From a virus: a DNA stretch of 64,000 nt. Below the pieces are notes generated by a model that was not told where the DNA came from, did no database searches, and was given only the letters and a program-made list of their open reading frames with translations. Both the position numbers and the translations under genes were made by a program. How positions within the stretch are numbered: the first letter of the stretch is position 1; the number at the start of each line of letters is the position of its first letter. The stretch spans positions 24,267 through 88,266 of the IMG/VR virus record IMGVR_UViG_3300025687_005582, one strand, 5' to 3'. Positions 297-43,369 of the stretch are shown in pieces.

Positions 297-1220
297 ATGA
301 TACCGTTATTTAACATAGAAAACTATGTGATTGACACTTCCAAATTCGATCATGCCTTGCATGATTCGGGTGTATTGAAATTTGAAGAGTCGTTCGCTGA
401 GTATGTGGGGGCAAGATATGCTTGTTCTGTTAATAGCGCAACGAGTGCAATTTTTCTCATCTTCTTGAACAAAAATATAAAAGTAAATGTTCCTAGTATA
501 ATCCCACCAGTAGTATTAAATGCTTTGTACAATGCCGGTAATACGATTAATTTTGTTGATAATGTTGACTGGGTAGGAGATTCATATATCTTACACGAGT
601 TTGCTGACTATAAAGTGATTGATTCTGCTCAAAAAGTTAAACCAAACCAGTTCCAACTGGAAGCAAACCCTAATGATCTAATGCTTTTTAGTTTTTATCC
701 GACTAAGCCGGTGGGAAGTTTGGATGGTGGTATGATAGTATCAAATGACTATGAAAAGATTTCCTATTTTAAAGAAGCTGTGATGAATGGTATGAGTTAT
801 AATCATAATAATTGGGATCGTCGTATAAAGTTTCCGGGGTGGAAGATGTATCTCAATTCTTTCCAGGCTGCTATCGCAGCCGAGAATCTAAAGAAGCTTC
901 CTAATAAATTGGAACATCTAGAGTATGTACGAGACTTCTATAACACAGAGCTTGGTCTAAACAACAATAGCGACCATCTATACAGGATTGAAGTGTCTAA
1001 TAATGCAGAAGTTATCGCGGCTTTGGAGGAAGTAGGCATTTCGTGTGGAATACATTATGCTGCCATGCATCTTCATCCAGTATACGGAACAATAAGCGAG
1101 TCAGACTGCCCTCGATCTGAGAAAATAGAAAAAAGCACTTTAAGCATTCCTTTTAATGAAAAGTTAACAAAGAAAAATTTACAGGATGTAGTGAAGCATG
1201 TTAGAGGCTGGATGGTATGA
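297..1220 (+). CDS. DegT/DnrJ/EryC1-type sugar aminotransferase (short form)
   Basis: A 307-residue PLP-dependent aminotransferase of the sugar-nucleotide class. SVNSATSAIFL (residues 44-54) is the phosphate-binding turn. VIDSAQKVKP (107-116) carries the aspartate that contacts the pyridine nitrogen. FYPTKPVGSLDGGMI (133-147) contains K137, the probable Schiff-base lysine. At 307 residues it is shorter than the usual 360-400, mostly through shortened loops, so substrate choice may differ. It overlaps rmlA by 4 nt (ATGA), indicating translational coupling. Sugar and acceptor are unknown; a dTDP-4-amino-4,6-dideoxyhexose is the simplest inference. Confidence 0.85.
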   Translation: MIPLFNIENYVIDTSKFDHALHDSGVLKFEESFAEYVGARYACSVNSATSAIFLIFLNKNIKVNVPSIIPPVVLNALYNAGNTINFVDNVDWVGDSYILHEFADYKVIDSAQKVKPNQFQLEANPNDLMLFSFYPTKPVGSLDGGMIVSNDYEKISYFKEAVMNGMSYNHNNWDRRIKFPGWKMYLNSFQAAIAAENLKKLPNKLEHLEYVRDFYNTELGLNNNSDHLYRIEVSNNAEVIAALEEVGISCGIHYAAMHLHPVYGTISESDCPRSEKIEKSTLSIPFNEKLTKKNLQDVVKHVRGWMV

Positions 1221-2107
1221 AAGGCATTATATTGGCTGGAGGCTCCGGAACGCGATTAAACCCAATAACGATTGGAGTTACGAAACAATTATTGCCGGTA
1301 TACAACAAGCCACTCATTTATTACCCATTATCTACTTTAATGTGGGGTGGTATTCGAGAAATTTTAATCATTTGTAAAAACAAAGATTTGAACTCTTTTA
1401 AAGAGTTATTTGGCGACGGTTCCCAACTTGGACTAGAAATAGAGTATAGAATTCAAGAGCACCCAGGGGGTATCGCAGAGGCATTTCTAATCGGAGAAGA
1501 CTTTATTGCTGGAGATGATGTATGTTTAATCTTAGGAGATAATATCTTTTATGGAAATAACTTAGGAATCACACTTGAAGAAAATATAAATCATATCAAA
1601 CATAACGGAGGGGCTCTTATTTATGGCCATGCTGTAAACAACCCGCAAGATTATGGAGTAGCTTACTTAAGCAAAAGTGGCATTCTTAATAAGATTATTG
1701 AAAAACCGAAATCTCCCCGATCGAATATTGCTGTAGTTGGATTGTACATGTATGACAACACAGTGGTTAATATATCAAAAAGCATCTTACCATCTGATCG
1801 CGGAGAAAAAGAAATAACTGACGTAAACCGATTGTACTTAAACCATAAAAAAATAAGATTACAGTTATTAGGTCGAGGTTTTGCGTGGTACGATTCTGGA
1901 TCCCCGGAAGCTCTATTTGATGCATCCAACTTTGTAAAAACCATAGAGTGCCGTCAAGGCGTCAAGATTGCTTGTTTAGAAGAAATTGCCTTTAAAAAAG
2001 GATTTATTGGATTTGATCAGTTACATGCGATCGCCAAAAAACAAAAAAATAGCGATTATGGACGTTATTTGTTAAAGCTGGTAGAAGAAGAGGAAAATAA
2101 TGGGTAG
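1217..2107 (+). CDS. rfbA: Glucose-1-phosphate thymidylyltransferase (RmlA)
   Basis: Makes dTDP-glucose from glucose-1-phosphate and dTTP, the first step of dTDP-deoxysugar synthesis. The N-terminal signature GGSGTRL (residues 8-14) with R13, TKQLLPVYNKPLIYYPLS (22-39) and the metal-binding ILGDNIFYG (105-113, D108) are all intact. The length of 296 residues is normal for the family, so the enzyme is probably active. The start overlaps the stop of the aminotransferase, and the end overlaps the start of rmlB by 8 nt. The neighbours RmlB and two aminotransferases point to an amino-deoxysugar. No rmlC or rmlD is in this window. Confidence 0.97.
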   Translation: MKGIILAGGSGTRLNPITIGVTKQLLPVYNKPLIYYPLSTLMWGGIREILIICKNKDLNSFKELFGDGSQLGLEIEYRIQEHPGGIAEAFLIGEDFIAGDDVCLILGDNIFYGNNLGITLEENINHIKHNGGALIYGHAVNNPQDYGVAYLSKSGILNKIIEKPKSPRSNIAVVGLYMYDNTVVNISKSILPSDRGEKEITDVNRLYLNHKKIRLQLLGRGFAWYDSGSPEALFDASNFVKTIECRQGVKIACLEEIAFKKGFIGFDQLHAIAKKQKNSDYGRYLLKLVEEEENNG

Positions 2108-3038
2108 AAGCAAAAGTGTGATGATAACAGGCTGTGCTGGATTTATAGGGAGCCACACAGCAGAAAGATTTTTGGATGCTGGTTATCGAGTGGTCGGCGT
2201 TGACGCCATGACATACGCAGCACGAAGATCAAATATTAAAGAATGCTTAAACAATGAAAATTTTACCTTTTATGAGATGGACATATGTGACAACACAGAG
2301 ATCAAATTGTTGGTTCAAAAATATAATATTGACTGGATCATTAATTTGGCAGCCGAAACCCATGTTGATAAATCAATCATCGATTGCACTGCTTTTATCA
2401 GATCTAACATTGAGGGTGTTAAATCTCTTTTGGAGGTGGGTCGAGAGCTAAAAACTAAACTTCTACATATTTCTACAGACGAGGTTTATGGTGAAATACG
2501 GAAAGGGTCGTTTCGGGAGGATTCTCCTTTAGAGCCTCGTAATCCTTATTCGGCTACTAAAGCTGCATCTGAACATCTTATCAGAGCATATGCGAACACA
2601 TATGGAATAGAGTATAAAATGGTGAGACCATCTAACAATTTTGGTCCGCGCCAGCACGATGAAAAGTTATTACCGACAGTTATTCGCAATTTAAAATCTG
2701 GAAATAAAGTTCCTGTTTATGGTGATGGAAAACAAGTTAGAGAATGGACATACGTCAAATACACTGCGGAGGCAATATTGTTCGTATTAGAACATGCTCC
2801 GGTGAATGATGTATATAATGTATCTAGCGGCTGTGAAATGGAAAATATCGAGATTATTAAACAAATATGCTCTATGATGGGTAAGGATTTTTCTTTAAGT
2901 ATTGAAAATATTCCTGATCGTGCGGGACATGATTTTAGGTATTCTGTATGCCCAGATAAACTGAACAACATCGGTTTCAGAATGCAACACGATACTATTA
3001 GTCAGATAGCACATACGATTGAAAAAAGTTATGAATGA
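2100..3038 (+). CDS. rfbB: dTDP-glucose 4,6-dehydratase (RmlB)
   Basis: Short-chain dehydrogenase/reductase that converts dTDP-glucose to dTDP-4-keto-6-deoxyglucose with bound NAD. The Rossmann motif GCAGFIG is at residues 11-17. The STDEVYG motif gives T126-D127-E128, the acid/base pair used for water elimination. The YxxxK dyad is Y150/K154 in YSATKAASEH. RPSNNFGPRQ (about 177-186) and the WTYVKYTAEAI segment also fit. At 312 residues it is slightly short (usually about 330-360). An AGAGG-like ribosome site precedes the ATG inside rmlA. It supplies the keto-sugar for the two upstream aminotransferases. Confidence 0.97.
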   Translation: MGRSKSVMITGCAGFIGSHTAERFLDAGYRVVGVDAMTYAARRSNIKECLNNENFTFYEMDICDNTEIKLLVQKYNIDWIINLAAETHVDKSIIDCTAFIRSNIEGVKSLLEVGRELKTKLLHISTDEVYGEIRKGSFREDSPLEPRNPYSATKAASEHLIRAYANTYGIEYKMVRPSNNFGPRQHDEKLLPTVIRNLKSGNKVPVYGDGKQVREWTYVKYTAEAILFVLEHAPVNDVYNVSSGCEMENIEIIKQICSMMGKDFSLSIENIPDRAGHDFRYSVCPDKLNNIGFRMQHDTISQIAHTIEKSYE

Positions 3039-3993
3039 CACTACAGCAGAGAAAGATCTTTTGATAATTCATAGATGTCAAAATCGGCAGTATAATTTAA
3101 AAAAAGTGATTGATATGTACGCTCGTATGCCAGGAGTTAGAAACGTAATACTCGATCATTCAAGTCAAATATACTCTAATATATCTTACGTAGAGACGAA
3201 TGGATTCGAATATTACCATCGTAAGCCAGAGGTTAATTATTTTGATATGACGCTAGAACTTCTATCAAATACCGAACAAGAATTCGTTGTTGATATTCCA
3301 GATGACGATATTACCCTCAAATCTTCATTAGCTCAATCTATAAAATTTTTAAAGCAAAATAGTGATTATGGGTCTTGTGATGGAGCATATCTACAGTCAA
3401 GAAAAGCTAATGATATTCGTATAAAATATCCAAAATCATTATCATATCATAATGCTATTAACGCTAGAAATGTGGACGATGCTCTCGAAAGAATCGAGAT
3501 GTTTTTTGTTAAATCTTATTATCCTTTGTGTCATGCTGTTCTTCGCACGAATATAATGAGAGAAATTCATGAGATGTTTGCCGACAATGACATTCTTCGT
3601 AACAAAATAAATGCATATGACAGATTCTTTACTTTTTTAACTCTCTTGAGAGGGAAGCATAAAATTCTAGAGCTACCATTCCAGATTAGAAATGATAACG
3701 AAACACGTCGCGCCGTGAACCAAAAAGTTACCCATAAGATGTGGAGTTTTAAAAATCTTAAACAGAACCTCTCTAAAGAGGCGGGGTGGCTAGATCCGTT
3801 GGCTAAAAAAATCTCTCAAGAATATGGTATAGAGGATATAAATGGGTTTCAAGAAGTAAATAAGATCCTGCAGCTTCACTTTAAATGTGATCCGAATCCT
3901 AATAAGAAATTTAAATCAGGAAATATTGAAAATCTTATTTCGAAAGAAGTCTTGGATGCCACAAGCATAATGTGGGAAAGAACTAAAGTTTAA
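3031..3993 (+). CDS. Glycosyltransferase-like protein (TIGR00180-type, GT2-like)
   Basis: A 320-residue protein with the ATG at 3031 chosen over an in-frame TTG at 3019; the ATG overlaps the rmlB stop by 8 nt, as elsewhere in this operon. DLLIIHRCQNRQYNLKKVI is the usual opening of this glycosyltransferase group. VVDIPDDDITLKSSL has an acidic triad (residues 91-93) resembling the DxD nucleotide-sugar/metal site, followed by NSDYGSCDGAYL. Its place next to dTDP-sugar genes suggests it transfers the sugar made here, but the acceptor (a phage structural protein, host envelope glycan or other) cannot be read from the sequence. Confidence 0.68.
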   Translation: MNDTTAEKDLLIIHRCQNRQYNLKKVIDMYARMPGVRNVILDHSSQIYSNISYVETNGFEYYHRKPEVNYFDMTLELLSNTEQEFVVDIPDDDITLKSSLAQSIKFLKQNSDYGSCDGAYLQSRKANDIRIKYPKSLSYHNAINARNVDDALERIEMFFVKSYYPLCHAVLRTNIMREIHEMFADNDILRNKINAYDRFFTFLTLLRGKHKILELPFQIRNDNETRRAVNQKVTHKMWSFKNLKQNLSKEAGWLDPLAKKISQEYGIEDINGFQEVNKILQLHFKCDPNPNKKFKSGNIENLISKEVLDATSIMWERTKV

Positions 3994-4056
3994 ATATATA
4001 CTTATTTTTAGCTTGCTAGCAGAAACAAATCTATTGTAGAAAGGATTTTAACCAAT
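3989..4056 (+). promoter_or_regulatory. Leader copy A, similar to the leader at 4869-4932
   Basis: This intergenic stretch runs TTTAAATAT, an AT-rich tract, a TTTTAGC...TTGC(T)AGCA block, an AAACA-ATC-ATT block, then TAGAAAGGA and the start codon. The same blocks occur in the same order upstream of the gene at 4933. AAAGGA at about 4040-4045 is the ribosome site. The shared AT-rich 5' part suggests a promoter for each gene; no clean sigma70 -35/-10 pair was found. Confidence 0.45.
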
Positions 4057-4857
4057 ATGTTTAAAAATTTATGGAAGATATTTGAGAAAGAAAAGAAAGA
4101 AGAGCCGGTAGAAGAGGAAGAACCTTCTCCTCAATCTGAAGAAGGAACAGAAGAAGTCGAACCGGAGCTTGTACCAGAGAGTCTAACAGCGGCTCCAGCG
4201 CCGGAGAAGCCAGAAATAACCATACCACAACCTCCGACACCGGAATCAACTGAGGACACAAAAATAGTCTCTTCCGGAGGAAGGAATAAGTTACATATTG
4301 GATATAATAAAACAGGAACAACCTTTTTGCAGAAACTTGTATTTCCACATTTAGAGAATTATAAAGGAAGATTATATTTGGAAGATGGCGATAAAATATG
4401 CAATCTAAGTTCACATAAAGTCGATAGACAGCCAAAACAAACTTGTCAAAATATTTTAAATCACTTCAAGGGACAGAAAGACATAATCGTATCGGCAGAA
4501 TGGTTTTCACTTATACCTCATGAAGATTTATTTGAATTATTGGGCGATGATGAGTGGGACGTATTAGTAGTCACAAGAGATGTAGAAGATCTGGTAGCAA
4601 GTTGGAAAAGAAAAGGCCCATCTAGAGACTTCTTTCTCAGAAGAGAAGTCAAGAGAAGACAGATGCAGCAAGTAGTTAGAGACTTTTACAATCCAGACAA
4701 TTTGAAAGTTGGAATAAAAAACTTAACAATCTTATCTTATGAAAAGCTTTTTTCTGGAAATATGGATGAGATTCAAAGACTCTCCGATTTTCTAGGAGCA
4801 GATATAAACAAGATTTTCTTAGATAATCTTGGAACTGTGGTAAATGGATCAAAGTGA
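4057..4857 (+). CDS. Sulfotransferase-like protein with acidic Pro/Glu-rich N-terminus
   Basis: 266 residues in two parts. Residues 1-73 are a low-complexity, Glu/Pro-rich, probably disordered segment that begins with a short basic/aromatic patch. Residues 78-266 resemble a PAPS-dependent sulfotransferase: GYNKTGTTFL (82-91) is the 5'-phosphosulfate loop, and VTRDVEDLVASW (172-183) with R174 and S182 resembles the 3'-phosphate site. The family (established) moves sulfate from PAPS to sugars, proteins or lipids. It follows the glycan operon but has its own leader (copy A). Sulfating the sugar made upstream is the obvious inference. The acidic extension is not part of the fold and may be a localisation or interaction tail. 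Confidence 0.7.
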   Translation: MFKNLWKIFEKEKKEEPVEEEEPSPQSEEGTEEVEPELVPESLTAAPAPEKPEITIPQPPTPESTEDTKIVSSGGRNKLHIGYNKTGTTFLQKLVFPHLENYKGRLYLEDGDKICNLSSHKVDRQPKQTCQNILNHFKGQKDIIVSAEWFSLIPHEDLFELLGDDEWDVLVVTRDVEDLVASWKRKGPSRDFFLRREVKRRQMQQVVRDFYNPDNLKVGIKNLTILSYEKLFSGNMDEIQRLSDFLGADINKIFLDNLGTVVNGSK

Positions 4858-5552: not shown

Positions 5553-5920
5553 TGTTCATTTATATTGTATTAATCATATCCCTTATATTAAACGCACTTT
5601 TGGGTTGGTATATATCAAGGATACTGCAAAAGTTTATGTTTATCTCGGACAACATGTCTGATTTGTTTTTGACCACAAAAGCATTTCATGTGTTCGTAAA
5701 GAATATGTATAGCATGGATTCATTTCATGGAGAGCCAATCATTCAAGAGTTGGTGTTTCGTATAAAAGAAGTAAATGAAGAAATGTCCAATTTTAGAGAT
5801 ATATTTGAATATACAATAGACGCCGAATTGGATCAAGAACTAGAGGAAGCGCTAAATGCCGAGGAAGAAGAGCAAGAAAAATCATTACTTTACGCAGGTT
5901 CACGAAGACGCAATAGTTAA
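5552..5920 (+). CDS. Small membrane protein with acidic C-terminus
   Basis: 122 residues. Residues 2-22 form one strong hydrophobic helix with few flanking charges, so it is probably anchored in the inner membrane with the rest cytoplasmic (inference). The C-terminal third is strongly acidic with coiled-coil character (residues 75-110). The last 65 nt overlap the start of the late sigma factor in another frame. No family recognised. Confidence 0.65.
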   Translation: MFIYIVLIISLILNALLGWYISRILQKFMFISDNMSDLFLTTKAFHVFVKNMYSMDSFHGEPIIQELVFRIKEVNEEMSNFRDIFEYTIDAELDQELEEALNAEEEEQEKSLLYAGSRRRNS

Positions 5921-15563: not shown

Positions 15564-17363
15564 ATGGCCAAAAAACTACAACCTATCGATTACACAAGCC
15601 GCGACTTCGACTCTATTCGTAGAGACCTAGAAAACTACGCGAAGAGATACTACCCGGATACATACAAAGATTTCAACCAAGCCTCTTTTGGCTCTTTGAT
15701 GCTGGATACAGTTGCCTACATCGGTGATATTTTATCCTTTTACCTTGATTATCAAACAAATGAATCGTTTTTAGAGTCTTCTATCGAGTACAATAACGTT
15801 GTTCGTCTTGCAAGACAGATGGGTTTCAAGCTAAACACGAGCCCTTCTTCCTACGGGTTGTTGACATTTTATATTCAGGTTCCATCGGATGCCAACACAG
15901 CTGGTCCTAACCTAGAATACGCGCCAGTTCTGCGCGCAGGATCTATCTTCTCTTCTACAGGAGGTGGTCTTTACACTCTCTTGGAAGACGTAGATTTTGC
16001 AGTATCCACAAATCAGGTTGTAGTTGGTACTGTTGACTCTACCACTGGTAACCCAACAAACTTTGTTATTAGGGCCCAAGGCCGAGCAGTATCTGGTAGA
16101 ACGCTTTTCAAAGAGTTGCAAGTAGGAAACTTCCAAAGATTCTTAAGAGTAGACTTAGAGAACAGTCGTGTTGCTGAGGTACTGAGTGTTTTGGATTCCG
16201 AAGGGCACGAATATGTAGAAGTAGATCACCTCTCACAAAATGTCGTGTATAAAGCAATTCGTAACACCAATACGTCCACTAACTCAACTGTAAGAAATAT
16301 CCTTAAAGCAGTCCCAGTTGCAAGAAGATTCACAGTTGAGCGCGAGGGAGATAGAACATATTTACAGTTTGGTTATGGCTCTGACTCTGAGTTACTATCT
16401 GATTCAGTCGCAGATCCTACGAATCTTGTTTTGGACTTGAATGGTCGCAACTACATTACGGATGCCGACTTCGATCCGACAAAATTAATCAGCACAGACA
16501 AGTTTGGTATTGCTCCGGCAAATACAACTTTAAGAATCGGATACAGAGTAAACCTAACTAACGATGTAAACGCTGCCGTAAACTCTATTACAGGAGTAGA
16601 CCGACCCCTATTCCGTTTTACCTCTCAGGGGTCACTATCACAGACACTTCGCAACACTGTTATCGGTTCCTTAGAGGTACTAAACGAAGAGCCATTTGTT
16701 GGTGATATATCTTTGCCTTCCTCGGAAGAGATTAAGCAAAGAGTATTTGGCTTCTACGCTACCCAGAATAGGGCAGTGACCATTCAGGATTATCAATCAA
16801 TCTGCTATGGAATGCCTGCAAAGTTCGGATCTGTTAAAAGAGCAGCGGTTGTTAGAGACTTTGATGAGTTCAAGAGAAACCTCAACATATATGTTATCTC
16901 AGAAGATACAAGCGGAAAATTGCTCACTGCAAACACAACTCTAAAGAACAACTTAAGAAGTTGGCTTTTACAGTATAAAGTAGTTAACGATACCATTGAT
17001 ATTTTAGATGCCGAAATCGTCAACTTCGGAATCAACTATGTTGTAGCTATTGATTTGAACACAAATAGATTCAATGTTATCAATCGAGCGAACGCAGCTT
17101 TGAGAGATTATCTTGTTAAAAATCAATATGATATCGGTGAGTCTATTCTTATAACAGACTTCTACAAAGTTCTACAAAAGGTAAACGGCATTATAGACGT
17201 TATAGATTTAGAAATCGTTGGTAAAACAGGTGCATCCTACGCAGATTCGTCATTTAGTTTTCAAGATAATCTTTCTGCCGATGGTAGAAGAATCGAAGGT
17301 CAAGAAAACGCAATCTTCGAACTTAAGTTCGCCAACGTGGATATCAAGGGAGCAATCCAGTAA
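15564..17363 (+). CDS. Baseplate wedge protein, gp6-like (J family)
   Basis: 599 residues (T4 gp6 is 660). The N-terminus has DYTSRDFDSIRRDL and FGSLMLDTVAYIGDILSFYLDYQTNESFLESS (about residues 45-78), the hallmark of gp6/phage J-type wedge proteins. The C-terminal half has the conserved RAVTIQDYQSICY and DIGESILITDFYKVL segments of the same family. In T4, gp6 dimers make the ring that clamps neighbouring wedges. It directly follows gp25, and its stop overlaps the next ATG by 1 nt. A CTATTTA motif at 15545-15551 lies just before the gene but within the end of gp25 and is very close to the ATG. Confidence 0.9.
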   Translation: MAKKLQPIDYTSRDFDSIRRDLENYAKRYYPDTYKDFNQASFGSLMLDTVAYIGDILSFYLDYQTNESFLESSIEYNNVVRLARQMGFKLNTSPSSYGLLTFYIQVPSDANTAGPNLEYAPVLRAGSIFSSTGGGLYTLLEDVDFAVSTNQVVVGTVDSTTGNPTNFVIRAQGRAVSGRTLFKELQVGNFQRFLRVDLENSRVAEVLSVLDSEGHEYVEVDHLSQNVVYKAIRNTNTSTNSTVRNILKAVPVARRFTVEREGDRTYLQFGYGSDSELLSDSVADPTNLVLDLNGRNYITDADFDPTKLISTDKFGIAPANTTLRIGYRVNLTNDVNAAVNSITGVDRPLFRFTSQGSLSQTLRNTVIGSLEVLNEEPFVGDISLPSSEEIKQRVFGFYATQNRAVTIQDYQSICYGMPAKFGSVKRAAVVRDFDEFKRNLNIYVISEDTSGKLLTANTTLKNNLRSWLLQYKVVNDTIDILDAEIVNFGINYVVAIDLNTNRFNVINRANAALRDYLVKNQYDIGESILITDFYKVLQKVNGIIDVIDLEIVGKTGASYADSSFSFQDNLSADGRRIEGQENAIFELKFANVDIKGAIQ

Positions 17364-37310: not shown

Positions 37311-37847
37311 ATGATTTTAGGACTTGACATCTCAACCAGTATTACTGGCTTAACAATATTAGACCCCGAAACTGGCGCCATTCTTTATTGCGATCATATT
37401 GATATGCGCAAAGAAAAAAACTTCTTTAAGAAGGCTGATATGATTGAAGATAAGTTAGAAAACATATCATATCGGTTTTACATAGGCAGGATCTATGTAG
37501 AGCAATCGCTTCAATCATTCCGCTCAGGATTCTCATCAGCACAAACGCTTTCGCTTTTATCAAAGATCAATGGTATAGTTTCTTGGCAATGTTATAAGAT
37601 CTTTGGCTTACAACCTCAATATCTCGCAGCCATATCTGCCAGAAAGTTGGTCGGCATTCAAGTTCCCAAAGGTCAGAAAGCAAAAGAAGTCGTTATGAAG
37701 TTTGTTATTGACAACGTGGAAGACTTTAATGTAGAGTATACCCGTCACGGCAATCCAAAGCCCGGTTATGCTGACCGCGCCGACAGTTACGTGATAGCAA
37801 AAGCGGGGTATATAAATGATAGACAAGAAACTCAAAATCCTAACTAA
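37311..37847 (+). CDS. RuvC-like Holliday junction resolvase
   Basis: 178 residues with the RNase-H-fold RuvC motifs: MILGLDIS (D6), IYVEQSL (E64), and YADRADSYVIA (D155 and D158), giving four acidic metal ligands in the right order and spacing. VPKGQKAKEVVM and ISARKLVG are the usual helices. The family cuts four-way DNA junctions. In a phage this resolves branched replicative DNA before packaging, the job done by the unrelated endonuclease VII (gp49) in T4. Its 3' end overlaps the primase gene by 32 nt. Confidence 0.87.
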   Translation: MILGLDISTSITGLTILDPETGAILYCDHIDMRKEKNFFKKADMIEDKLENISYRFYIGRIYVEQSLQSFRSGFSSAQTLSLLSKINGIVSWQCYKIFGLQPQYLAAISARKLVGIQVPKGQKAKEVVMKFVIDNVEDFNVEYTRHGNPKPGYADRADSYVIAKAGYINDRQETQNPN

Positions 37848-38751
37848 TGTTCTCGGAGCATCTTATCGCTCCAACAATGAGTTTCTTTTTTCCTGTCCTT
37901 ACTGCAAACACCACAAACGCAAGTTCTCGGTAAACATAGACAAAGGCTATTACAAGTGCTGGGTCTGTGATACACGCGGTAAAAACATTTATCGTGTTAT
38001 CCGACGCTTTGGAACAAACCACGACAAGTCTCAATGGCGTGACATCACAGGCACCGTTGATTATGAGAAGCTTGAAGATCTTTTTGCCGAGAAAGTAGAA
38101 GAAAAACAAATACTTGATATGCCCGAAGGTTTTGTATCTTTGGCGAATAAAGATATTCCACCTACCGGATTTGCTGCCCGAAACTATCTACGAAAGCGCG
38201 GCATCACAAAGCAAGATATTGTTTGGTGGAAGATGGGCTATTGTAGTAAAGGAGAGTATGAAAATCGCATTATCATTCCTTCGTTTGATGATGAAGGCGA
38301 TTTGAACTACTTTGTTTCTCGGTCTTATGATAAGAAAGCTTACCCAAAGTATAAGAACCCGCCAGCAAGTAAGAACATTATATTCAACGATTTGTTTGTG
38401 GATTGGAGTTCGGACATTATATTGGTGGAGGGAGTCTTCGATGCTGTGGTTGCCGGTCGTAATTCTGTACCTCTTCTTGGATCCACACTAAATCAAAACT
38501 CTTCTCTTCTACAAAAGATTGTAAAAGAAGACGCAGGCGTTTATATCGCTTTGGATCCCGACGCAAGAAAGAAAGAGTTGGAAATCATCAAAACTTTGTT
38601 GGATTTTGATATTGAAGTTTGGAAAGTAAACATCGGAGAGAATGAAGATGTTGGGTCAATGACGAAGGGTAACTTCCAGAAATGTTTGGACAAAGCGACC
38701 CTTATTACATCAGACAACTATTTACTGTTGACGCTCGCTATGTCGGTGTAA
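37816..38751 (+). CDS. DnaG-type DNA primase (gp61-like)
   Basis: 311 residues (T4 gp61 is 342). Zinc ribbon: C27, C30, C48, C51 within SCPYCKHHKRKFSVN and YYKCWVCD. Toprim core: IILVEGVFDAV (E205) and VYIALDPDA (D247, D249). The region between, with GFAARNYLRKRGITKQDI and RIIIPSFDDEGDL, fits the DnaG catalytic core. It makes RNA primers for lagging-strand synthesis with a gp41-type helicase, which is outside this window. The first 32 nt overlap the resolvase gene. All key residues are present, so it is likely active. Confidence 0.88.
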   Translation: MIDKKLKILTNVLGASYRSNNEFLFSCPYCKHHKRKFSVNIDKGYYKCWVCDTRGKNIYRVIRRFGTNHDKSQWRDITGTVDYEKLEDLFAEKVEEKQILDMPEGFVSLANKDIPPTGFAARNYLRKRGITKQDIVWWKMGYCSKGEYENRIIIPSFDDEGDLNYFVSRSYDKKAYPKYKNPPASKNIIFNDLFVDWSSDIILVEGVFDAVVAGRNSVPLLGSTLNQNSSLLQKIVKEDAGVYIALDPDARKKELEIIKTLLDFDIEVWKVNIGENEDVGSMTKGNFQKCLDKATLITSDNYLLLTLAMSV

Positions 38752-39357: not shown

Positions 39358-39385
39358 TTGACTAACTCTACCGTTGGTATATACT
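39358..39385 (+). promoter_or_regulatory. Sigma70-like promoter for the Mre11-Rad50 gene
   Basis: TTGACT (39358-39363), 16-nt spacer, TATACT (39380-39385). Both hexamers are close to the bacterial consensus, and transcription would start near 39392. The -10 box lies in the loop of the terminator hairpin (see next feature), so transcripts from here lack the left arm and would not be stopped. This is the clearest host-type promoter in the window. Confidence 0.6.
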
Positions 39386-39403
39386 GACGGTAGAGTTTTT
39401 TTT
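39364..39403 (+). terminator. Rho-independent terminator after the gene at 38766
   Basis: Perfect 11-bp inverted repeat AACTCTACCGT (39364-39374) / ACGGTAGAGTT (39387-39397) with a 12-nt loop, followed by a run of eight T (39396-39403). It lies between the stop at 39335 and the TTG start at 39418. Confidence 0.85.
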
Positions 39404-39417
39404 ATTGGGAGTAAAAC

Positions 39418-42400
39418 TTGGGATACAAAATCGCGCACATCGCAGACACACACATCAAAAATCTAAAATATCATTACGAATACAAGAAAGTATTTGAGCA
39501 ACTTTACGATACTCTTCGTAAAGAGAACGTAGATTACATTGTTCACTGCGGCGATATTGCCCATACAAAGACGCAGATTTCACCAGAGTTTGTTGAGTTA
39601 TGCTCAGACTTCTTTGCTAATCTTGAGTCTATTGCGCCTACCTACATTATCTTGGGCAACCACGACGGCAACTTGAAGAACAGCAGCCGTCAGGACGCTC
39701 TGTCGCCCATTGTAAGCGCTTTGAACCTCCCTAACCTTCACCTACTCAAGAATGCCGGTGAAACCGTTCTAGAGCCCGATCTCGCGCTCAACGTGCTATC
39801 TGTATTTGATGAGGAGAACTGGGTTGCTCCAAGCGATCAATCACGCATCAATATTGCTTTGTATCACGGTGCTATTGGCGGCGTCTCAACTGACGTTGGT
39901 TGGGTAATGGATCACGGCGATCACGACATTGGCGTGTTTGCTGGTCACGATTATGCGATGCTTGGAGATATTCACAAGACCAACCAAATCCTTGATACAG
40001 AAGGTCGTGTGCGTTACGCAGGTTCAACCGTTCAACAAAACCACGGCGAAACCAATGATAAAGGATTCTTAACTTGGGAAATTCGTAGTAAAGATGACTT
40101 TACTGTCAAACATCACGTTCTCCTAAACCCCAAGCCTTTTGTTACACTTGAACTAACGCCAAAGGGTCGCATTCCAAAGGGCACAAGCATCCCTTCTGGT
40201 GCGCGCCTGCGTCTTGTAAGTAACAACAATCTGCCTCTGGACGTAATGCGCAAGGCAGTTGAGGTCGCAAAGTCTCGTTTCAAGCCGGAATCAATCTCGT
40301 TCTTGAACAGAGCAGCAGGCGAAAGAGGCGAGATTAGTCTTGGAAAGAACTTCAAGATTGAGAACTTACGAGATGTAGCAGTTCAGGAAGATCATATTCG
40401 CGAGTATCTACAAGATTACGAGCCTTCTAATACTATCTTACAGAAGGTTTACGAACTAAACCGTAAGTATAACTCTCACATTGAAGAGAACGAAGACATT
40501 GCGAGAAATGTAAATTGGAATATCAACCGCTTTGAATGGGACAACCTCTTCAACTACGGTGAAGACAATACACTTGATTTCACAAATCTCAACGGTATTG
40601 TCGGGATCTTTGGAAAGAACTATTCAGGCAAGTCATCTGTTATTGATGGAATGCTTTACACAATGTTCAATACCACCTCAAAGAACGAAAGAAAGAACTA
40701 CAACATTATCAATCAAAACAAGAAAGATTGTAAGAGTTCTTTGGAGCTACAGATTGGTGAGAAGACCTATACCATTGAAAGAAAGTCAGAAAAGTATGTA
40801 AAGCGCCTCAAAGGTGTGGAAACAAATGAAGCAAGAACTTTCTTGGACTTTACACAGGACGGTGATTTAAGCCTCAACGGCACAACCCGTAACGAAACTG
40901 ACGCTAATATTCGCAAGCAGTTCGGAACAGTTGAGGATTTCCTGCTAACTTCTATGGCTAGTCAGTTGGATTCTTTGAGTTTCATCAAGGAAGGCTCTAC
41001 AAAGCGTAAGGAAATCCTTGCGAAGTTCTTGGACTTGGAGATCTTTGAAAAGAAGTTCAAGTTGGCAAAAGAAGATTCAGCAGATCTCAAAGCTGTTATT
41101 CGTCGTATCGGAGATGTAGATTACGACAAGGATATTGCTATTGCTGAGGTTCATCGAGACGAAGCACAAAAGAAACTTGAACTGGATAGTGCTACTTGCT
41201 CTATGCTTCGCCGGCGCCTTATAACGCACGAAGAAGATCACAAGAACCTAACAGAGCAGATTGATTCTATTCCGACAGAGCGACTAAACATCAAGAAGCT
41301 TCTTGAAAGAAGAGCACAACTAACTAAAAACATTGAGGATACAAAAGAAAACATCTCTGAACTCAAAGTTGAAATCTCCGAGTTTGATGCGACACTAAGT
41401 CGATATGATGATTTCCTAACGACAATCAACATTGAAGATTTGCTGGAAGAGAAAAAGCAATACGATGTTTTCAAGCGTCGTTATGATGAGACAGTCAATC
41501 GTGCTCGCATAATGGATAACGACTACAAGACCATATCCAAGAAGCTTACTTTGCTTGATGAGGTTCCTTGTGGGAACTCTTATGTTTCATCTTGTAAGTT
41601 TATCTCGGATGCTCACAATGCCTCTGTTGAGATGCCTGTTCTTGAAAAGGCTATCATTGAAAAGATTGAGGAAGCAAAAGGCTACAAAGAAAAGATTGTA
41701 TCTGTTGATTCAGCAGCGATGGTTGAGTTGATTGATAGTTACAACGAAACCATTATCTCAAAGAACAACATTGAGATTGAGAAGCGCGATAACAAAGTTT
41801 CTATTGAGAAGTTGTTTGCGAAGATCAAGACGCTAACAGCCGATCTTAGCGAGACCAATGATAAGATCGCCTTATACGAAGATAACAAAGAAGCAATCCA
41901 GAACATAGAAAATCTCATTTCTTCCCGAGATGAGATTGAAAAGAAGATTGCCGACACAAAGAAAGAGATTGAATCTTACGAGGCAATATTATCAACTCAT
42001 AACAGAACAATCGGTTCGCTTGAACAAAAGGTAGAAACTTTGGTAGAGAAAAAGCAAGAGTTGCTTGATATTCGTGCCGAGTTCGCTGCTTACGATTTGT
42101 TTATGCGTTGTATGCACTCTAACGGCATTGCTTATGATATTATTAAAAAACGACTTCCGGTCATCAATGAAGAAATCGCAAAAACCATTTCCAATATTGT
42201 TGACTTTGAGGTATTCTTTAGAGAGGATGGAAACAAATTAGATGTTCTTATTAAGCACCCTAACTACGAAGCCCGACCTATTGAGATGGGTTCAGGCGCT
42301 GAAAAGACGCTTGCGTCGATGGGCATACGTTTGGCTTTACTCTCTGTGTCTTCGCTACCAAAAGGTAATATCTTTATTTTAGACGAGCCTGGAACGGCTT

Positions 42401-42561
42401 TGGACGCAGAGAATATGGAAGGCTTTATACGAATGCTTGATCTAGTTAAAACGTACTTTAAGACAGTTATTCTTATTTCTCACTTGGATTCTCTAAAAGA
42501 CATTGTTGATATGGAGATTACGATCGAAAAGAACAACGGATACGCGAGGATTAGCCAATGA
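39418..42561 (+). CDS. Mre11-Rad50 (gp47-gp46, SbcD-SbcC) fusion protein
   Basis: A single 1047-residue chain. Residues 1-370 are an Mre11/SbcD nuclease: HIADTHI (D10, H12), HCGDIAH, ILGNHDG, LYHGAIGG and AGHDYAMLGDIH supply the metal ligands. Residues 385-1047 are a Rad50/SbcC ATPase: Walker A FGKNYSGKSS (398-407), long coiled coils, a hook-like C718-x7-C726, signature EMGSGAEKTLASMG, and Walker B IFILDEPGTALD. In T4 these are two genes (gp47, gp46; 339+560 aa) acting in end resection and recombination-dependent replication. The TTG start is supported by GGGAG 6 nt upstream and by the exact Mre11 opening. No stop separates the halves. Confidence 0.92.
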   Translation: MGYKIAHIADTHIKNLKYHYEYKKVFEQLYDTLRKENVDYIVHCGDIAHTKTQISPEFVELCSDFFANLESIAPTYIILGNHDGNLKNSSRQDALSPIVSALNLPNLHLLKNAGETVLEPDLALNVLSVFDEENWVAPSDQSRINIALYHGAIGGVSTDVGWVMDHGDHDIGVFAGHDYAMLGDIHKTNQILDTEGRVRYAGSTVQQNHGETNDKGFLTWEIRSKDDFTVKHHVLLNPKPFVTLELTPKGRIPKGTSIPSGARLRLVSNNNLPLDVMRKAVEVAKSRFKPESISFLNRAAGERGEISLGKNFKIENLRDVAVQEDHIREYLQDYEPSNTILQKVYELNRKYNSHIEENEDIARNVNWNINRFEWDNLFNYGEDNTLDFTNLNGIVGIFGKNYSGKSSVIDGMLYTMFNTTSKNERKNYNIINQNKKDCKSSLELQIGEKTYTIERKSEKYVKRLKGVETNEARTFLDFTQDGDLSLNGTTRNETDANIRKQFGTVEDFLLTSMASQLDSLSFIKEGSTKRKEILAKFLDLEIFEKKFKLAKEDSADLKAVIRRIGDVDYDKDIAIAEVHRDEAQKKLELDSATCSMLRRRLITHEEDHKNLTEQIDSIPTERLNIKKLLERRAQLTKNIEDTKENISELKVEISEFDATLSRYDDFLTTINIEDLLEEKKQYDVFKRRYDETVNRARIMDNDYKTISKKLTLLDEVPCGNSYVSSCKFISDAHNASVEMPVLEKAIIEKIEEAKGYKEKIVSVDSAAMVELIDSYNETIISKNNIEIEKRDNKVSIEKLFAKIKTLTADLSETNDKIALYEDNKEAIQNIENLISSRDEIEKKIADTKKEIESYEAILSTHNRTIGSLEQKVETLVEKKQELLDIRAEFAAYDLFMRCMHSNGIAYDIIKKRLPVINEEIAKTISNIVDFEVFFREDGNKLDVLIKHPNYEARPIEMGSGAEKTLASMGIRLALLSVSSLPKGNIFILDEPGTALDAENMEGFIRMLDLVKTYFKTVILISHLDSLKDIVDMEITIEKNNGYARISQ

Positions 42562-42625: not shown

Positions 42626-43369
42626 CTACGGCCATTTGTAAACTTGCTTGAAGTATTGATCCATAACTCTTTCTTTCCGTTCATCAGAAGAGGTATACCA
42701 TACCCACACAAATAATTGGCCAATACGAGAGATACGACCCATCGTAAGTTTTATATCTTCTTCGATCCAGCTGATCTGCTTTTCATCGATATCCCCAGGC
42801 GATATTCCGAGATCAATAGCAATAGAATAAAGAACATACCAGTTCTCACGCTCATATGCTTCTTTTGCTTTCTTGAACATTCCTTCTCTTCTCTCGACTT
42901 GTGCTTGCGAGAAGCCAGAAGCGATTAGTTTATCCGGATGTGTCTCGCTAGCAATCTTGCGATAAAGTTTTTTGATTACTTTAGATTTGTCGTCGTCATC
43001 ATCGTTGTCTTCAATCTCATCGGGATTAAGATAGAACTCTTCACCAGTCTGACCATCTACAAAGGTTTCTTTGTTTTTAACAAGACTTCTTTGCTCTTCT
43101 TGCTCCTCTGCTTCAGCCTCTAATCGCTTTTTACTTTCTTTCTCGGCTTCCTCTAGCAGTTGCTTTGCTTTTTCATCATTTAATTTATGAAGATGTCGCG
43201 TCCAATATTTTCTTTGACGCCGAGACATATTATTGATTCTGTCTAAAAATGCTTCGTTAAAATCAACTTTTGCCTCAAATACTAACTCTTCGTGATACTC
43301 CAAATCTGCGTGTACAAACTCGGCTTTCTTTAGCATTTTCTTGAATTTAAGTTCGGTGCGTTTAGACAT
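42626..43369 (-). CDS. J-domain-like (DnaJ-type) phage protein
   Basis: The only convincing minus-strand gene. 247 residues: a basic, helical N-terminus (1-65), a Glu/Lys-rich coiled coil (65-100), an acidic DDDDD linker (120-128), then a J-like segment at about 129-190 (VIKKLYRKIASETHPDK, with H144-P145-D146, followed by FKKAKEAYERENWYVLYSIAIDLGI). The HPD motif is what J-proteins use to stimulate Hsp70 ATPase. Unlike classical DnaJ, the J-domain is near the C-terminus and Gly/Phe and zinc regions are absent. It could recruit host DnaK for phage replication or head assembly (inference). It ends convergent with the micro-ORF at 42558. Confidence 0.72.
   Translation of the reverse strand: MSKRTELKFKKMLKKAEFVHADLEYHEELVFEAKVDFNEAFLDRINNMSRRQRKYWTRHLHKLNDEKAKQLLEEAEKESKKRLEAEAEEQEEQRSLVKNKETFVDGQTGEEFYLNPDEIEDNDDDDDKSKVIKKLYRKIASETHPDKLIASGFSQAQVERREGMFKKAKEAYERENWYVLYSIAIDLGISPGDIDEKQISWIEEDIKLTMGRISRIGQLFVWVWYTSSDERKERVMDQYFKQVYKWP

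Follow-up and report, generated by a model that had tools for sequence, protein, structure and literature searches.

Polypeptides that combine the Mre11 nuclease and the Rad50 ATPase were described in 2011 by Yoshida, Claverie and Ogata, whose report covers Mimivirus R555 and 12 others, a Bacillus phage among the carriers (PMC3175470). It describes R555-type fusions as abundant in aquatic viral metagenomes and attributes the plentiful metagenomic homologues of R555 to viruses, probably in part to phages (PMC3175470). Among T4-like phages, genes-in-pieces have precedents in nrdA of Aeh1 with mobE, T4 gene 60 with mobA, and gene 43 of phage 25 (PMC2988022). For the gene considered here, the split found in relatives, not the fusion, is the new and more surprising feature.

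The window (the whole 64,000-nucleotide stretch that was analysed) lies inside an 88,266-base viral record, which is a genome fragment. On its plus strand, positions 39418–42561 form a single intact frame of 1047 codons, from a TTG at 39418, with GGGAG upstream, to a stop ending at 42561; the start region was compared with that of relatives. Pfam matches to Metallophos (residues 4–157, E 3e-13) and SMC_N (residues 369–1034, E 2e-10) fall on this chain, as do PHROGs matches to the SbcC-like phrog_77 (E 7e-60) and the SbcD-like phrog_100 (E 5e-25), which bears out the earlier note's statement that nuclease and ATPase share one uninterrupted frame. Judged from its sequence, the gene genuinely encodes Mre11 and Rad50 as a single chain.

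The Mre11/SbcD nuclease and capping domain occupies residues 1–300 (39418–40317; Pfam, structure model and 7dog_A) and includes, behind the GDIH motif, a beta-hairpin that is uninterrupted in the window gene (residues 188–201, 39979–40020; secondary structure from the model). Residues 320–358 (40375–40491) form the helix-loop-helix domain by which Mre11 binds Rad50, assigned from the model and from the T. maritima description in PMC3175470. A joint had been proposed at residues 340–395. It exists and is narrower: helices 320–334 and 338–358 belong to the Rad50-binding domain of Mre11 and the first Rad50 strand begins at 366, so the joint comprises about residues 359–365 (40492–40512; model and alignment). 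At or near it, R363, N364 and W367 are nearly invariant in 57 sequences. Rad50 ATPase lobe I, with Walker A inside, spans residues 366–540 (40513–41037; Pfam, alignment and model), the coiled-coil arms residues 541–899 (41038–42114; alignment and model) and lobe II residues 900–1047 (42115–42558), all on the plus strand. The structure model of the chain has a mean pLDDT of 79 and a pTM of 0.47, a low value that leaves the domain-to-domain arrangement unfixed; both domains share the solved folds of SbcCD/Mre11-Rad50, with matches to Rad50/SbcC (Z 27.3) and, over residues 2–297, to SbcD (7dog_A, Z 23.7).

Across up to 209 relatives, D10, H12, D46, H49, N81, H82, H150, D184 and H186 of the nuclease are invariant or nearly so, with D10, H12, D46, N81, H82, H150, D184 and H186 invariant among close relatives and retained in the wider set. 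The nuclease motifs D10, H12 and GNHD (N81/H82) named in the earlier note are conserved in relatives. Its ‘GHD’ is no active-site motif: this triplet (residues 176–178) is variable, H177 frequently being F, and the active-site motif is the invariant GDIH at 183–186, equivalent to Pyrococcus H206/H208. In the ATPase, the Walker A lysine K405, S959-G960-E962, D989-E990 and H1022 are conserved to the same degree across the same relatives (up to 209); Walker A had been placed correctly at 398–407, and the signature (SGAEKT, 959–964) and Walker B (985–990) are present as reported. The window gene has the fusion-type catalytic pattern of H49 and D184, both invariant in nearly all relatives. Cyanophage gp47, of the two-gene T4-like kind, has Asp at the position of H49 and His at that of D184, whereas Mimivirus R555 shares both fusion-type states, with His third in GDxxD and Asp replacing Pyrococcus H206, according to PMC3175470. 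The coiled-coil apex (residues 716–727, 41563–41598, plus strand) reads C718-x7-C726 instead of the CxxC of a zinc hook. Most relatives have C-x6-C, others C-x7-C or, in some, CxxC, and some have no clear cysteine pair; the C-x7-C apex is a variant hook and no proof of a different function.

So, is the fusion itself new? The earlier note implied that it was, and suggested searching related phages for the same arrangement. That search found a full fusion in the cultured Microcystis phage Mel-JY01 (phage collection) and related fusions in hundreds of environmental contigs, and the claim to novelty falls, because such fusions were already in print in 2011 and are the usual state in this clade. 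It is already known, and ordinary in this phage group. Fold matches among viral proteins include Tupanvirus, Harvfovirus, Terrestrivirus, Tenacibaculum phages and a Listeria phage protein of fused length, the best matches in BFVD being giant-virus fusions. All 18 long related viral contigs have one convincing SbcC and one convincing SbcD place, in the same frame, and no convincing second copy of either was found in them; weak extra matches occur to phrog_77 in two and to phrog_100 in one. The 735 kb phage LR756501 (L087) encodes a 1202-residue fusion and, elsewhere, a separate SbcC-like gene. Flavobacterium phage immuto, though equally near by terminase, gave no match to the SbcC-like or SbcD-like family. 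When plasmids were searched with the window query, partial matches appeared and no full fusion. Four loci in metagenome-assembled genomes (MAGs) match the fusion, three of them on contigs of 6–24 kb that are likely binned phage. The fourth (L113, CP070664.1) is a 60% identical fusion fragment within a 2.8 Mb MAG chromosome; it adjoins runs of N and is probably a mis-scaffolded phage piece. Bacterial and archaeal carriers were set aside on these grounds, short contigs in three cases and N runs beside the fourth.

The phage that carries the window gene has T4-like genes for terminase, portal, major head protein, primase and prohead protease; its T4-like genes include homologues of gp17, gp20, gp23 and gp61. 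In the phage collection, its closest terminases are those of Mel-JY01 and immuto. A T4-like DNA primase is encoded at 37816–38751 (+) and lies just upstream of the fusion in 160 of 173 testable relatives. A RuvC-like Holliday junction resolvase (37311–37847, +; a weak match, E 2e-5) has counterparts upstream in 138 of the 173. RecA was found in all eight large relatives tested, a set that lies outside the window contig. Just upstream of the fusion, at 39358–39405 (+), a terminator-like palindrome with a T run overlaps a promoter-like TTGACT-16-TATACT site. The palindrome recurs at the same position in L002, L004, L006, L010 and L035, with matched arm changes and the TTGAC/TATACT pair conserved; L016 keeps the promoter-like hexamers and has lost the palindrome. 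The palindrome may act as a terminator or as an operator. Beside the fusion stands a lone minus-strand gene (42626–43369), whose DnaJ match is weak and falls short of the Pfam cut-off. Elsewhere, sugar genes occur at window positions 297–4857 and at 15906–18342 of L084, the contig upstream of the window. They include members of the DHDPS and DAHP/KDO-8-P synthase families, a cytidylyltransferase, an aminotransferase, a nucleotidyl transferase, an epimerase and a sulfotransferase, a set that suggests acidic sugar synthesis.

We take the window gene to be the probable equivalent of gp47-gp46, or SbcD-SbcC, in an uncultured T4-like phage. Two fusion chains would pair through their nuclease domains and through ATP held between the Rad50 heads, and the helix-loop-helix of residues 320–358 would pack on the root of the coiled coil, so that a joint of about seven residues could bridge the halves and leave the usual M2R2 geometry unchanged. 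Hydrolysis of ATP would then open the heads and let the nuclease process DNA ends, which may feed recombination-dependent replication of the RecA/UvsX type. Such a role fits the primase synteny and the RecA of relatives; a literature search turned up no biochemical work on any phage protein of the fused type. The 1:1 stoichiometry that the earlier note held to be fixed by the fusion is a true consequence of it, but the ordinary two-protein Mre11-Rad50 complex is also 1:1. The change in end-resection control that the note suggested would be a possible further effect. Overall, we put at roughly 0.85 the probability that this is a one-chain Mre11-Rad50 serving recombination-dependent replication in a T4-like phage, and a target of cassettes in relatives.

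Two other accounts of the fused gene have to be set against this one. The enzyme might serve mainly some other purpose, for instance breaking down host DNA or countering defence: T4 gp46/47 has been linked to host DNA degradation as well, and the function of the fusion is a predicted one. We regard such a main purpose as unlikely, given that the primase and RuvC-like synteny and the RecA in the same genomes fit replication and recombination, although the roles are not exclusive. The joint could also be a sequencing or assembly error that merged two adjacent genes, as gp47 and gp46 are separate in T4-like cyanophages. However, the frame runs unbroken across the joint in 219 of 273 loci (some contigs counted more than once), R363, N364 and W367 are conserved there and the cultured Mel-JY01 has the same fusion; the remaining loci are contig ends, breaks at the hairpin, or two cyanophage-type records with two genes. 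Since independent contigs keep the frame across the joint, an artefact is ruled out for practical purposes.

The breaks in relatives fall at one hairpin behind GDIH, corresponding to window residues 188–201 and away from the joint; about 30 of the wider set of 273 loci are broken there. We located the cut point through GDIH itself, permitting D, H or E at 184. Some of the two-piece genes have a homing endonuclease between the pieces; most split loci have none. Three kinds of endonuclease were found at the site: DUF7487/NUMOD3 with an HNH-like end (L118), Vsr-like (L216 and L206) and TnsA-like (L086, the phage record LR756508, where the ORF has 305 residues). In L118, L216 and L086 the endonuclease gene stands between two pieces of one gene, the arrangement that defines genes-in-pieces. 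The window gene’s own nearest relatives are touched: L021, 89% identical to it in the larger part, is broken at 197/200 and holds an HNH-like remnant, and L004 and L005 are healed, with an in-frame insert at the hairpin site as a scar. A viral scan with the N-piece of L086 found no relative. L245 has a single in-frame stop at 5831–5835, near query residue 270, a different place from the hairpin.

Split genes carry additional sequence at both new ends. The tail added to the N-piece is acidic in all 26 distinct pairs (mean charge -6.0) and that added to the C-piece is basic in all 26 (mean charge +5.3). The N-tail often encodes GAGG right before a 4-base start/stop overlap, which would fit coupled translation. 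Both pieces appear from codon comparisons to be under purifying selection, with dN/dS of 0.02–0.18 for the N-piece and 0.05–0.23 for the C-piece, though dS approaches saturation in many of the pairs. Catalytic residues are retained in every split row, and no intact second copy was found in 12 split contigs of up to 369 kb. On a tree of 127 rows (tails left out, quick search), where gain and loss are indistinguishable, 11 changes are needed to explain the split-or-scar label; starred branches force the intact group alone to 11 changes. The tails also appear to be mobile. Those of L205 and L206 are 94% and 100% identical in DNA and the flanks 72% and 67%, so tails seem to move with the cassette; L205 is 86–87% like the intact L241.

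Might the broken genes simply be dead, misassembled or read through? The split loci do come from metagenome contigs, in several a single stop separates two pieces that share a frame, and L245 shows a lone in-frame stop at another place. Yet TAA, TAG and TGA stops are mixed, and the pieces mostly lie in different frames, where start and stop overlap by 4 bases and GAGG stands upstream. The three kinds of stop and the differing frames mean that recoding is not the cause of the split, and together with the overlaps they rule it out. The conserved tails of opposite charge, the low dN/dS and the catalytic residues kept in the pieces make pseudogenes or assembly errors a very unlikely explanation. 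Introns and inteins often carry homing endonucleases, and a group I intron or intein would leave the mature protein continuous. Against this, most split loci have nothing but a start/stop overlap between pieces, each piece has its own stop or start, and where endonuclease ORFs occur they take up nearly all of the 828–921 base gaps. No Rfam intron match was found in the four loci searched, and we reject an intron or intein as extremely improbable.

We lean, with some reserve, towards reading the fused gene as a recurrent landing site for a cassette whose tails re-form a working nuclease, the split outliving the endonuclease. The cassette would consist of an acidic N-tail with a stop, a homing endonuclease gene, and a start with a basic C-tail. 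By inserting in the hairpin behind GDIH, it would split the nuclease domain into two polypeptides, which the tails would pair and probably re-join; the charge and position of the tails suggest to us that they pair to make a longer hairpin. The endonuclease may be lost later, and the gene then either be healed with a scar, as in L004 and L005, or keep a remnant, as in L021. If this is true, the parasite brings its own repair for the gene that it breaks. One codon site offers natural alleles that are intact, endonuclease-bearing, split with no endonuclease, remnant-bearing or healed. They allow tests of how an important enzyme withstands a cut across its active-site region and of whether assembly tails arrive with homing endonucleases, and they provide ready-made natural split points in the Mre11 nuclease.

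Compared with known systems, the window protein is matched in both halves by solved structures of E. coli SbcCD, which consists of two chains with a longer coiled coil. T4 gp47/gp46 and the cyanophages have the same two enzyme activities in two genes; the cyanophage gp47/gp46 examined have GDxFD and GHxH motifs and a CPTC apex. The Mel-JY01 protein (WWT39521.1, annotated only as an AAA domain protein) is a fused, uninterrupted frame of 1067 residues with 31% identity to the window protein over the whole length, a more distant relative that also has a primase upstream. R555-type fusions share the N-terminal nuclease, C-terminal ATPase and short joint, but R555 has 1351 residues against 1047 here, where the carrier is a T4-like phage, and the available part of that report does not mention interruption by a homing endonuclease (PMC3175470). 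Our literature search found no homing endonuclease splitting SbcD/Mre11. The closest parallel to the breaks is the genes-in-pieces of T4-like phages, in which an essential gene is likewise split by a homing endonuclease and its two polypeptides come together again (PMC2988022). Here, in contrast, the target is the Mre11 nuclease domain, three kinds of endonuclease use a single site, the tree requires no fewer than 11 changes of state, and the tails on the two pieces are opposite in charge.
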